A stretch of 36,555 nucleotides of DNA, taken from the NCBI RefSeq assembly GCF_002006755.1, contig NZ_MVDO01000175.1, positions 1 to 36,555 on the forward strand. Direction: 5' to 3'. The position numbers and the translations under genes are program-made. This DNA comes from Wohlfahrtiimonas larvae (GTDB taxonomy: Bacteria; Pseudomonadota; Gammaproteobacteria; Cardiobacteriales; Wohlfahrtiimonadaceae). Every line of letters starts with the position of its first letter. The stretch's first letter is position 1. Of this stretch, positions 14,710 to 19,064 are shown piece by piece. The notes under the pieces are model-generated. The model saw only the letters and a program-made list of their open reading frames with translations. It searched no databases and was not told the origin of the DNA.

Positions 14710-15372
14710 TTATTTCTGAGCATACCTTATCTTATAAAGCATATAAGGCTCTATAAGAATCAAAGGTAATTGTCTTTTATTTAAAGCTATTGATCTATTC
14801 GGAGATGTTAGATTTGTAGATCTAGTAATAATTATACCTTCTTTTGTAATAGCATCATTATCTGCACGCCATACATATCTATCTTTAAGGTCTTTATACA
14901 TATGATCGTTTAGACCATTTTTTGCTAAATACTCATTCATTGTATTTTTTGTTCTTTCTCTTTCCTCATATGATTGGTTAAGCCATTTCGAAATTACTTT
15001 AACTTTTTCAGCAACAATTTTAAAATCTTCATCATTTCTATAGGTAACAATTGATAACCCTTGTACATAAGTTATACCTGCACTTACAATAATGTGCTTC
15101 ATTTTATATTCAATTTTTCCATCTACATTGATTTTATCAAGCCACACAAGTAAATCAGCTTCTGATCCTTCAATTTGAGGATCAACTCCTGGATAAACAG
15201 ATTTGGATTTTTCATTATAATAGTAGTATGTAATATTATTTTTATAATATTCAGATTTTCCGTTTAATAATAACTGAGCACATCCAGATAAAAATATGAA
15301 AGAAAATATAATTATTGCTATTTTAAAATAGAATTTAACTATCATATTTATTTTTATCTTATTAAATTTCAT
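14710..15372 (-). CDS. Lipoprotein of unknown function
   Basis: 220 residues. A basic N-terminus and hydrophobic stretch end in lipobox FLSGC with the lipidated cysteine at position 31; the following Ala-Gln would favour outer-membrane sorting. The mature part is Lys-, Tyr- and Asn-rich with no recognised domain. AAAGAG lies 8 bases before the ATG, supporting this start. Codons are markedly more A/T-biased (ATA, TTA, AAT) than in flanking uvrC, which may reflect weak selection or acquisition. It is transcribed alone, divergently from the monooxygenase-like gene and convergently with uvrC. Confidence 0.75.
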   Translation of the reverse strand: MKFNKIKINMIVKFYFKIAIIIFSFIFLSGCAQLLLNGKSEYYKNNITYYYYNEKSKSVYPGVDPQIEGSEADLLVWLDKINVDGKIEYKMKHIIVSAGITYVQGLSIVTYRNDEDFKIVAEKVKVISKWLNQSYEERERTKNTMNEYLAKNGLNDHMYKDLKDRYVWRADNDAITKEGIIITRSTNLTSPNRSIALNKRQLPLILIEPYMLYKIRYAQK

Positions 15373-15440: not shown

Positions 15441-15737
15441 ATGCTCAAGCTTATTGCTGAAGATTTTATTGATCCCACAAAAATTGAGATCGTTTTGCCT
15501 TTATATCAAGAACTCGTAAATGCAACCCGAAAAGAAGCAGGTTGCATTAGTTATGAGCTTTGTCATGATCTTAAAAATCCTGGGCACTTTGTTTTTATAG
15601 AAGAATGGCAAGATTATGATGCTTTGGATACTCATGTTGCATCCGAGCATTTCCAACGTTTAGTACCGCAGATTAATGCTTATAGCATTAAAGAAGGTAG
15701 ATTCACTCACATGGAATCTGTTTTATTTAAAGATTAA
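15441..15737 (+). CDS. ABM-domain (YgiN-like) monooxygenase-family protein
   Basis: 98 residues, the usual length of single-domain antibiotic-biosynthesis-monooxygenase (dimeric alpha-beta barrel) proteins. The pattern EAGCISYELCHDL...FVFIEEWQDYDALDTHVAS, then a helix and a short final strand, is typical. YgiN-type members are quinol monooxygenases; true substrates are usually unknown. AAGAGA lies just upstream of the ATG. The 3' end of this gene holds the candidate -35 of the downstream ECF leader. Likely cytoplasmic. Confidence 0.85.
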   Translation: MLKLIAEDFIDPTKIEIVLPLYQELVNATRKEAGCISYELCHDLKNPGHFVFIEEWQDYDALDTHVASEHFQRLVPQINAYSIKEGRFTHMESVLFKD

Positions 15738-15747
15738 GCACTATAAT
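15719..15747 (+). promoter_or_regulatory. Promoter of the DUF296-ECF leader
   Basis: -35-like TGTTTT at 15719-15724, a 17-base spacer and a perfect -10 TATAAT at 15742-15747. The predicted start of transcription is near 15755, leaving a leader of about 250 nt before the first start codon at 16006. The -35 lies inside the end of the preceding gene. Confidence 0.55.
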
Positions 15748-15754
15748 AAGCAGA

Positions 15755-15974
15755 TCTTCCTCAATATCTTTTGGATATTCTCACAATGATCTTTCGCAAG
15801 CAGTGAATGACAGCTTTAGGCACTAGTTTAGTGTCACGCTTGGATGTGTTAAAGACTTAACGCTGCTGCTTGTTATCGCCTTTAGCACAACTTATTCATT
15901 CCAAAAAAGTGCTAAAGATGAATTATTATCAATATAAACATGATGTTATAGCCATTCCATGCGGATGGCTTTTT
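15755..15974 (+). ncRNA. Candidate riboswitch/attenuator leader RNA
   Basis: Structured 5' leader read directly from complementarity. Hairpin AATATC/GATATT is at 15763-15768/15774-15779. A closing stem CAAGCAG (15797-15803) / CTGCTTG (15866-15872) encloses two hairpins. These are GGCACTA (15819-15825) / TAGTGTC (15829-15835), and GTGTTAA (15846-15852) / TTAACGC (15857-15863) with loop AGAC. Together they form a three-way junction. A 9-bp hairpin CTTTAGCAC (15880-15888) / GTGCTAAAG (15909-15917) and then an intrinsic terminator (15950-15974) follow. The terminator ends 31 bases before the start codon of the DUF296-ECF operon. I do not recognise TPP, cobalamin, FMN, preQ1 or purine riboswitch cores. 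Regulation by transcription attenuation is an inference. Confidence 0.55.
15950..15974 (+). terminator. Intrinsic terminator in front of the DUF296-ECF operon
   Basis: An 8-bp stem AGCCATTC (15950-15957) / GGATGGCT (15963-15970, one G-U pair) with loop CATGC, followed by a T-run (15970-15974). It is 210 bases past the previous gene but only 31 bases before the next start codon, the position expected of a regulated leader terminator. Confidence 0.8.
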
Positions 15975-16005
15975 GTCGTGCCCGCTTTTTACCAAGGAAA
16001 TTCTT

Positions 16006-16434
16006 ATGAATCCTAATCTTCCACTTTCATTGCATGATGCAAAATTCTGCACCATTCGCTTAAAACCCGGTGATGACCTGCTCCATGAAATCAGAATCCT
16101 AGCCACAACGCACAATATCAAAGCAGGCTTCATTGCCTCATCTGTCGGTAGCTTATCTCAATTTGGATTGCGCTACGCAGGTAAACCTGATGCAACAATT
16201 CAACAAGGTTGCTATGAGATCGTTTCCTTAATCGGCACGATCGAAACCACAGGCGAGCACATTCATTTATCTGTTTCTGATGAAAATGGCGCGATGCTCG
16301 GTGGTCATGTGATGGAAGGCTGCATTGTGCGTACCACTTTAGAAATCGTCATTGGCATTTTAGAGAGTTGCCAATATAGCCGAGAATATTGTGATCTCTC
16401 GGGCTACGAAGAACTCGTTATCAAAACAATTTAA
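16006..16434 (+). CDS. DUF296 / PPC-domain protein
   Basis: 142 residues, essentially a single PPC (plants and prokaryotes conserved) domain. The metal-binding histidine pattern is visible as H85 and H87 in GEHIHLSVSD and H101 in GGHVMEG. AAGGA at 15994-15998 lies 7 bases before ATG 16006, so the upstream in-frame extension is not coding. The gene leads an operon with the ECF transporter genes: the S component begins 28 bases later. Bacterial PPC proteins have no settled biochemical role. The context suggests a function linked to the imported compound, for example binding, processing or sensing it. Confidence 0.85.
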   Translation: MNPNLPLSLHDAKFCTIRLKPGDDLLHEIRILATTHNIKAGFIASSVGSLSQFGLRYAGKPDATIQQGCYEIVSLIGTIETTGEHIHLSVSDENGAMLGGHVMEGCIVRTTLEIVIGILESCQYSREYCDLSGYEELVIKTI

Positions 16435-16462: not shown

Positions 16463-17041
16463 ATGGCTGTTGATCGTAAATTTTTAACCACACATATGCT
16501 CGTATTAATCTCAACTTGTATCGCCATCAACATGGTACTTGGGCAAGTGGCTTCCATAATTAAGCTCCCAATCTTTTTAGATTCCATCGGCACATTCATC
16601 GCAGCATTATTAGGTGGACCTTGGATTGCAGCATTGACAGGGTTATTGACTAACTTAATTTGGGGCTTAATCTCTTCACCTGTTGCCGCTGCATTTGCAC
16701 CCGTTGCGATTGTGATTGGTTTGTCCGCTGGCTTCTTAGCTCGCACGGGCATGTTCAACACTTGGTATAAAGTTGTGATCAGCGGTGTCATCATCACAAT
16801 TTGCTTAACATTGGTGGCAACGCCAATTCGCACATATTTATTTGCGGGCGTAACAGGCAGTGGCGCAGATTTCATCGTGGCTTATATTCATGCAACAGGT
16901 GAAAAATTATGGCAATCCGTGGCTTCAACCATCATCTTGGCAAACTTAGCTGATAAAATCATCACTGGTTTAATCGCATGGCAATTAGTGAAGCATTTAC
17001 CAAAACGTACGAAACAACAATTCCCACAACATATTCAATAA
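16463..17041 (+). CDS. ECF transporter S (substrate-binding) component
   Basis: 192 residues, an integral membrane protein with about six hydrophobic segments. The helix LGQVASIIKLPIFLDSIGT and the glycine-rich GGPWIAALTGLLTNLIWG are typical of the S component of energy-coupling-factor importers for vitamins or related micronutrients. AAAGGA at 16451-16456 precedes ATG 16463. Its stop overlaps the next start by one base (TAATG), implying translational coupling. S components define the substrate; I cannot place this one in a named vitamin subfamily from sequence alone. It is a dedicated (group I type) system, since T and both A subunits follow directly. Confidence 0.85.
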   Translation: MAVDRKFLTTHMLVLISTCIAINMVLGQVASIIKLPIFLDSIGTFIAALLGGPWIAALTGLLTNLIWGLISSPVAAAFAPVAIVIGLSAGFLARTGMFNTWYKVVISGVIITICLTLVATPIRTYLFAGVTGSGADFIVAYIHATGEKLWQSVASTIILANLADKIITGLIAWQLVKHLPKRTKQQFPQHIQ

Positions 17042-17754
17042 TGAAGAAATTACACCCTTTCACAGCGCTAACAATATGGGCAATAATTGCAGTACAAGCC
17101 CTATTGTTACTGCTTAGTATCTCCTTGATGGCTTTAGCAATCAGCACTTTATTATGTTTAATTACGTGGAAAGCTTCGCGCCATCGTTTGCGCTATGTTC
17201 TCTATTTAATGATCCCCATGGCTTTGGGAATTTATTTAGTGCATGGCGGATTATTACATTCATGGTTGGGCGGTAAATCTTCTCCCACCGCTTTACAACA
17301 TGCGATGACAATCTGGTGGCGATTATTAGCCATTTTTACAGCCGCACAAATTTGGATGCAATATGTACCAACTATCACGATGATCCAATCGCTCTTCGCA
17401 TCTCGTTTACCCATTGGCTTATCCTATTTGTTGGCAAGTCCATTGCTATTAATGCAGCAATTATCCCACCAAATCAAACACATTCAAGAAGCACAATTAG
17501 CACGTGGCGTTCGTTTGGATGGCAATCTGTTTCAACGGGCAAAAGCAATGCTAGCCATTATTTTTCCATTGATTAATAGCACATTTGCGAATCTTTCCAT
17601 CAAAATTGCAGCACTAGAATCCAAAGGATTTCGTTACCAAGCCAAGCGCACAAACTTATGGGCACCAAAAGATACAAGCGCACAAAAGTATTTCCGCTAT
17701 GGTGCAATTTTGCTATTAATCATCGAAGTGATTGGAGTTTTATTATGGCGTTAA
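17041..17754 (+). CDS. ecfT: ECF transporter T (transmembrane coupling) component
   Basis: 237 residues, inner membrane. Four to five hydrophobic helices surround a cytoplasmic helical region that couples ATPase movement to the S component. The first coupling motif LARGV is intact; the second, normally A/S-R-G, reads ESKGF. The start overlaps the S-component stop by one base and the end overlaps the first ATPase gene by 10 bases, so the four transporter genes form one translation-coupled unit. Confidence 0.85.
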   Translation: MKKLHPFTALTIWAIIAVQALLLLLSISLMALAISTLLCLITWKASRHRLRYVLYLMIPMALGIYLVHGGLLHSWLGGKSSPTALQHAMTIWWRLLAIFTAAQIWMQYVPTITMIQSLFASRLPIGLSYLLASPLLLMQQLSHQIKHIQEAQLARGVRLDGNLFQRAKAMLAIIFPLINSTFANLSIKIAALESKGFRYQAKRTNLWAPKDTSAQKYFRYGAILLLIIEVIGVLLWR

Positions 17755-18407
17755 TCATTCGTGATCTACAATTTACACCGATTGATCACCCTACATTTGC
17801 AATTGAGAATATCACATTGCATGATAATGAATGGCTTTGCATTGAAGGTGGCAATGGTAGCGGAAAAAGTACAATTGCATCTATTATTGCTGGCTGGGTA
17901 CCAACATTATTGCCAGGTGAAATCCAAGGCAATATCATATTAAATAAAGAAGATATTTTAGGACGATCCGTCATCGAGTTATCATCCAACATTCAATATG
18001 TACAGCAAGCACCGCAATGGCAATTATCAGGCTGTACATTCACAGTGGAAGAAGAATTAACCTTCGGTCCTGAAAATTTAGCAATGGATAGCACTGTGAT
18101 TCTTGAGCAGTTAGAAAAAATATTAATATTGATGGATTTGGCTCATTTACGCAAACGTGACCCTAGTACTTTATCAGGTGGAGAAATGCAGCGCTTGATG
18201 ATTAGCTCGGCGCTTATGATGCAACCTGAACTGTTAATTTTAGATGAATCCTTTAGCCGAATGACATTGGCTTATCAAATGAAAATCCTTGAGCAATTAA
18301 AATCGTTGGACTCAGGAAAATCTATGAATGTCATTATTTTAGAAAAGCGACAAAGTGAATTTATGCCATTTTGCGAACATCTTTTAATACTGCCAAAGCG
18401 AGGATAA
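17745..18407 (+). CDS. ECF transporter ATPase, first subunit (LSGGE, no switch His)
   Basis: 220 residues, cytoplasmic ABC ATPase. Walker A GGNGSGKST is at 35-43, the Q-loop lies in QYVQQAPQWQLSG, a canonical signature LSGGE is at 143-147, and Walker B LLILDE is at 163-168. The D-loop reads SRMT without its Asp. The switch histidine is replaced by Lys201 (VIILEKR instead of VTH). The protein lacks the C-terminal extension of Firmicute EcfA proteins. Start ATG 17745 has GGAG about 7 bases upstream and lies inside ecfT. It should pair with the next gene product as a heterodimer. Confidence 0.88.
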   Translation: MALIIRDLQFTPIDHPTFAIENITLHDNEWLCIEGGNGSGKSTIASIIAGWVPTLLPGEIQGNIILNKEDILGRSVIELSSNIQYVQQAPQWQLSGCTFTVEEELTFGPENLAMDSTVILEQLEKILILMDLAHLRKRDPSTLSGGEMQRLMISSALMMQPELLILDESFSRMTLAYQMKILEQLKSLDSGKSMNVIILEKRQSEFMPFCEHLLILPKRG

Positions 18408-18410
18408 TTT

Positions 18411-19064
18411 ATGTTGCAGTTAAACCATATTCATTTCGCTTGGCCCAATAGCGACACAGAATGTTTACAGGATATTCATTTGAATATCGCTAAAGGTGAA
18501 GCCATTGCTTTGGTTGGTGATAATGGCGCAGGTAAATCTACATTATTGAAATTAATCTGCGGATTACTGAAACCAACACAAGGCTCAATCACAATCCATG
18601 ATCAAGATATTGCCAAGCTTAATGCAGGTGAACGTGCAAAATTAGTGGGGTTATTGTTCCAAGAGCCTGAGCGACAATTCTTCCACAACAGTGTGAAAGC
18701 TGAAATTGCTTATGGATTAAAAATCCAGAAATATGCTACCTCAGAAATTGATGCAAAAGTTTCAGCAATTATGGATGAGTTTAATCTCACGCATCGCCAA
18801 GATGACCATCCTTTAGATTTAAATGCAGCTGAAAAGCGCATGGTAACTTTAGCATCCTTAGCTATATTAAATTTACCCGTCTTATTGCTCGATGAACCGA
18901 GCCGAGATTTAGATGATGATTGGTTATTAATCTTAGAACAATGGCTCAAAAAATCACAAATAAATGGTACAACTATCATTGCCATTAGCCATGATCCAAA
19001 GTTTATCAAAAGAAATACTCAAAAAATTATTCATTTATCTCAAGGCAGAATAATTACGGTTTGA
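18411..19064 (+). CDS. ECF transporter ATPase, second subunit (degenerate signature)
   Basis: 217 residues. Walker A GDNGAGKST is at 36-44, FQEPERQFF carries the Q-loop and typical EcfA residues, Walker B VLLLDE is at 157-162, the D-loop RDLD is intact and the switch His194 is in ISHD. The signature expected as LSGGQKR reads LNAAEKR (137-143). With the partner's intact LSGGE and missing His, one composite ATP site of the heterodimer is complete and the other is doubly damaged. The ATG is 3 bases after the previous stop. Last gene of the ECF operon; no clear hairpin terminator follows. Confidence 0.88.
   Translation: MLQLNHIHFAWPNSDTECLQDIHLNIAKGEAIALVGDNGAGKSTLLKLICGLLKPTQGSITIHDQDIAKLNAGERAKLVGLLFQEPERQFFHNSVKAEIAYGLKIQKYATSEIDAKVSAIMDEFNLTHRQDDHPLDLNAAEKRMVTLASLAILNLPVLLLDEPSRDLDDDWLLILEQWLKKSQINGTTIIAISHDPKFIKRNTQKIIHLSQGRIITV

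Follow-up and report, generated by a model that had tools for sequence, protein, structure and literature searches.

A conserved leader with mutually exclusive helices, a candidate attenuator-type control region, precedes a PPC-ECF importer operon in Wohlfahrtiimonas

Does the sequence in front of the ECF importer operon of Wohlfahrtiimonas larvae encode an RNA that controls the operon, and if so, what kind of RNA is it? The window analyzed here, the whole stretch of 36,555 nucleotides (contig C85 of the W. larvae genome G000), carries a PPC/PCC (DUF296) gene followed by the genes of an ECF transporter, and an earlier note on this DNA had proposed that an unrecognized structured leader with a transcriptional off-switch precedes them. 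The importer genes were assigned with different degrees of certainty. The S component is a relative of the CD3073 family (NF045596) but was not called a member, its 138.6 bits lying below the curated cut-off of 180. The EcfT-like gene falls short of the Pfam cut-off for CbiQ (20.6 bits against 25) and occupies the position of the annotated T component in the Salmonella operon. The literature searched contained nothing on CD3073, and its sole co-mention of Wohlfahrtiimonas and riboswitches concerns histidine regulation in Gram-positive bacteria. Further upstream, between uvrC and an ABM gene, the minus strand contains a 220-aa lipoprotein-like ORF (14710-15372), for which no match was found in Pfam or NCBIfam.

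The features of the leader and the operon are listed in Table 1. The perfect -10 box that had been claimed is present; no good matching -35 element was found by the promoter scan. The minimum-free-energy fold of the leader (15750-15976; -55.2 kcal/mol) contains P1-P4 and the terminator, and thus all of the previously proposed elements: five or more stems, a three-way junction, a 9-bp hairpin and an intrinsic terminator. The terminator scan of the window found exactly one site, where 0.5 were expected, and this terminator is conserved in W. populi (GCCATTC/GAATGGC). Compared with shuffled sequences (mean -47.1 kcal/mol, z -2.03, 5 of 200 as stable), the leader fold is modestly unusual. Folding energy alone is weak evidence, and conservation is better evidence.

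Table 1. Features of the leader and of the PPC-ECF operon; positions refer to the window
Feature	Position	Strand	Evidence
-10 hexamer TATAAT, likely leader promoter	15742-15747	+	Sequence; kept in W. populi
P0 hairpin, AATATCT/GGATATT	15763-15779	+	Base-pair probability 0.89
Mini-ORF 1, ATGATCTTTCGCAAGCAGTGA, MIFRKQ and stop	15786-15806	+	Frame kept in W. populi and G002
P1, closing helix of three-way junction, 8 bp	15796-15803 with 15866-15873	+	8 of 8 pairs kept in G002
Mini-ORF 2, MTALGTSLVSRLDVLKT and stop	15807-15860	+	Frame kept in G002 (MAILDTSLVSRLNVLRL and stop)
P2 hairpin, 7 bp	15819-15825 with 15829-15835	+	7 of 7 pairs kept in G002
P3 hairpin	15846-15851 with 15858-15863	+	6 of 6 pairs kept in G002, one compatible change
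Alternative helix, 9 bp, GTGTTAAAG with CTTTAGCAC	15846-15854 with 15880-15888	+	9 of 9 pairs kept in G002
P4, 9-bp hairpin	15880-15888 with 15909-15917	+	Base-pair probability 0.99 in the window
Intrinsic terminator, 8-bp stem and T tract (TTTTGT)	15950-15976 (stem 15950-15970)	+	Terminator scan
PPC/PCC (DUF296) gene, operon gene 1	16006-16434	+	PF03479, E 2.5e-27
ECF transporter S component, CD3073-family relative	16463-17041	+	PF12822; NF045596, 138.6 bits
EcfT-like transmembrane component	17041-17754	+	CbiQ, 20.6 bits, below Pfam cut-off
Two ECF ATPases	17745-18407 and 18411-19064	+	ABC_tran; top NCBIfam matches are ECF ATPases, below cut-off

Among 57 related genomes searched at the DNA level, homologous leaders were found only in W. 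populi (G004, NZ_MVDN01000008; 93% identical) and in an uncultured Wohlfahrtiimonas (G002, CANRJJ010000093; 72%). The PPC gene lies directly downstream of the leader in all three genomes, with only its first part present in G002, near a contig end; neither this gene nor the S component occurs in the three remaining genomes of the genus. In the window the ABM gene (end at 15737) directly precedes the leader. In G002 a ClcA-like channel gene (L020, 4080-5426) intervenes between the two, which ties the leader to the ECF operon and not to the ABM gene.

Block 15783-15880 aligns between the window and G002 without gaps over 98 columns, with 26 differences, and the unpaired positions are more variable (19 of 56) than the paired ones (7 of 42). 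Each of the 21 pairs in P1, P2 and P3 is standard in G002. P1 shows one double change (G-C to A-U) and one G-U to A-U change, and P2 likewise one double change (C-G to U-A) and one G-U to A-U change. The seventh pair that P3 has in the window is lost in G002. When an equal number of changes was placed randomly within the paired columns, retention of the three helices had a P of about 0.003; drawing the mutation spectrum from the longer alignment lowered it to about 0.0006. With the partners displaced by 1-3 columns, pairing fell from 100% to 24-54%. The column-shuffle control, weak with three sequences, reached the junction score in 54 of 500 cases, and in 16 of 500 when the alternative helix was included. 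The whole comparison comprises three sequences, equivalent to two effective lineages. P4, the output hairpin, shows the lowest conservation of the helices (7 of 9 pairs kept in G002), and in the place of P0 the G002 leader carries a hairpin with another sequence (CACATAA/TTATGTG, probability 0.98). At the level of aligned sequences, then, the claim of a structured leader holds, the junction stems having kept all 21 pairs, two of them through compensatory double changes.

The alignment also revealed a helix that is absent from the earlier note. The alternative helix shares its 5' arm with P3 and its 3' arm with P4 and excludes both, and its coexistence with P1 would require a pseudoknot. This exclusivity points to a two-state switch. 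In G002 the helix shows one double change (A-U to G-C) and one G-C to G-U change. Its retention alone has a P of about 0.03; together with P1, P2 and P3 (30 of 30 pairs kept, 3 double changes) the value is about 4e-5, which is optimistic because the helix was picked after the alignment had been seen. In predicted folds of the growing transcript of the window, the junction is present at 130 nt, gives way to the alternative helix at 142 nt and returns, with P4, at 172 nt.

The way in which these helices relate to termination differs between the two lineages. The best predicted fold of G002 combines the alternative helix with a terminator-like hairpin (CAACAAAGTG/CATTTTGTTG), which is unlike that of the window and was found independently by the terminator scan. 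This fold (-44.7 kcal/mol) is favored over the junction with P4 (-42.0 kcal/mol); the junction with the terminator (-43.4 kcal/mol) is also near it in energy. P4 of G002 overlaps the 5' arm of the terminator and competes with it. The window terminator is positioned 30 bases farther downstream and forms in both modeled states (-55.2 and -49.9 kcal/mol), so the proposed transcriptional off-switch is not supported in the window. The earlier note had suggested a near-direct repeat, TGTTATCGCC/TGTTATAGCC, as a possible switching element. The repeat exists, but it yields no pairing able to open the terminator and its second copy is missing from G002; it was dropped as a switching element. In the predicted read-through fold of the window, 15904-15911 would pair with 15983-15990, near the ribosome-binding site.

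We consider it fairly probable that the leader acts in cis as an attenuator-type control region for the PPC-ECF operon, with two mutually exclusive states. Transcription would start near 15750, and the RNA would then fold into one of them. In state A, the P1-P2-P3 junction would form and 15880-15888 would be available for downstream pairing as P4; in state B, pairing of 15846-15854 with 15880-15888 would destroy both P3 and P4. In G002 the terminator could form in state B and would be opened in state A; anything that stabilizes the junction or masks 15846-15854 should therefore switch on the operon. The window would retain this switch, with the downstream terminator forming in either state. 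Transcription of the leader, switching, the direction of control and the nature of the signal are what we infer from these arrangements; for the sensor, translation of the mini-ORFs through 15846-15854 is ranked slightly ahead of direct binding of a ligand.

The leader also contains two abutting mini-ORFs, which the earlier note does not mention. The conserved block opens with the ATG of mini-ORF 1, which reads MIFHKQ in G002 (two silent and one replacement codon), and the ATG of mini-ORF 2 directly follows its stop codon in both the window and G002. Since these frames are preserved, ribosome-coupled attenuation rivals a ligand-binding riboswitch: ribosomes on the mini-ORFs (15786-15860) would cover 15846-15854, the 5' arm of the alternative helix, which falls inside mini-ORF 2, and would thereby decide which helix forms. 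The retention of both frames and of the stop-start junction, as well as the lack of any insertion or deletion across the 98 columns, is consistent with this reading. However, the substitutions in mini-ORF 2 are distributed 5/4/6 among the codon positions and give no indication of coding constraint, and 6 of its 9 changed codons are replacements; moreover, neither MIFRKQ nor MTALGTSLVSRLDVLKT contains a run of regulatory amino-acid codons, and the mini-ORFs have no clear ribosome-binding site. We hold the reading tentatively, as rather unlikely. Like the trp, his and pheA leader-peptide attenuators of Gammaproteobacteria, the leader has short conserved ORFs overlapping alternative hairpins, and its segments 15846-54, 15880-88 and 15909-17 can pair as 2:3 or 3:4. 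Unlike them, it has no single-amino-acid codon run and only a weak ribosome-binding site, and hairpin 3:4 is not itself a terminator.

The leader could instead be a metabolite riboswitch, in which the P1-P2-P3 junction, or a pseudoknot of P1 with the alternative helix, would bind a small ligand related to the importer substrate and set the switch. The covarying junction, the alternative pairing and the importer operon downstream would all fit, and the position 5' of such an operon, the multi-helix junction, the exclusive alternative helix and the downstream terminator are shared with terminator riboswitches. In contrast to these, the leader has no known aptamer core, its junction loops are poorly conserved, the unpaired positions varying more than the paired ones, and the terminator of the window is not coupled to the switch. 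Searches with Rfam gave no match above any gathering threshold across the whole window, in agreement with the earlier statement that no known riboswitch core is recognizable; resemblances to SAM-II and mir-1255 were below threshold, and the weak matches as a whole lay at chance level. Relatives are also confined to one genus. With model R1 no convincing members beyond the three were found in 32 genomes of the order, nor further ones in 369 sampled Gammaproteobacteria, and a pattern scan of 84,980 genomes returned ten matches, only those in W. populi and G002 being genuine and the other eight looking like chance. Four weak R1 matches were judged to be chance as well: L010, L011 and L030 overlap coding sequence or its edge, and L031 overlaps a terminator hairpin between genes. 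The leader is thus, as far as the searched sequences indicate, restricted to three Wohlfahrtiimonas genomes. A riboswitch in this sense seems unlikely.

A possible second copy of the RNA in the same genome, upstream of dctQ (L002), was not counted as a member. Its blast score against the leader (40.1 bits) is higher than that from any of 8 simulated genomes (at most 34.6), but its own orthologs do not preserve the shared motif and under model R1 it reaches only 19.7 bits (E 0.95). The dctP-dctQ gap of this TRAP transporter contains a conserved stem-loop (L002 939-1023 on contig C236 of G000; L024; L025), the 5' part of which, AATGATCTTTCGCAA, resembles the ECF leader more closely than expected by chance. 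The stem-loop and the ECF leader each start an ORF with MIF.

The operon itself also occurs outside the genus. A PPC-S-T-A-A operon with the same gene order lies between epd and tkt in Salmonella and E. coli, with an S component about 61-62% identical to that of the window, and an orthologous operon was also found in Paracoccus. Model R1 gave no match, at E up to 5, in the leaders of the enterobacterial (E. coli, Salmonella), Paracoccus and archaeal orthologs. The leader of the Salmonella and E. coli operon is unrelated and has an element of its own, ACGTCCGAG..CGGAGT, and the Salmonella copy has no match in Rfam. This element is common to the regions upstream of the PPC start in Salmonella (L036, 5165-5600), E. 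coli (L037) and G636 (L033). Of 5426 complete E. coli genomes, 3299 contain 80% or more of the leader-PPC-S stretch of E. coli (L037, 5166-6600), and the E. coli operon is apparently uncharacterized. Haloarchaeal relatives of the S component (L039, L041) lie between two nucleoside hydrolase genes, and two bacterial relatives are flanked by genes that, from reading of their translations, are ribokinase-like or LacI-PfkB-like. These neighbors suggest a nucleoside-type substrate for the importer and, if the leader were a riboswitch, a nucleoside-type ligand. That it represents a new lineage-specific riboswitch class, possibly a nucleoside-sensing junction or pseudoknot controlling an ECF importer whose operon is widespread in E. 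coli, seems to us quite improbable.

It is quite improbable that the terminator merely ends the transcript of the ABM gene or that the region is a stand-alone small RNA: the ABM gene is indeed the direct upstream neighbor in the window and the terminator region is weakly MicA-like, but the MicA match is well below threshold (21 bits against a gathering score of 41; E 0.72), another gene separates the ABM gene from the leader in G002, and conserved helices lie inside the leader.

The proposed attenuator-type control region stands before the genes of an orphan importer, of the vitamin or nutrient type, whose ortholog is present in most sequenced E. coli. If the control RNA reads the substrate, it would offer a handle on the cargo of this importer; if it is a ribosome-coupled attenuator, it would be an unusual one, lacking a codon run. 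At minimum, the leader is an undescribed control region in Wohlfahrtiimonas, a genus that includes an emerging human pathogen.
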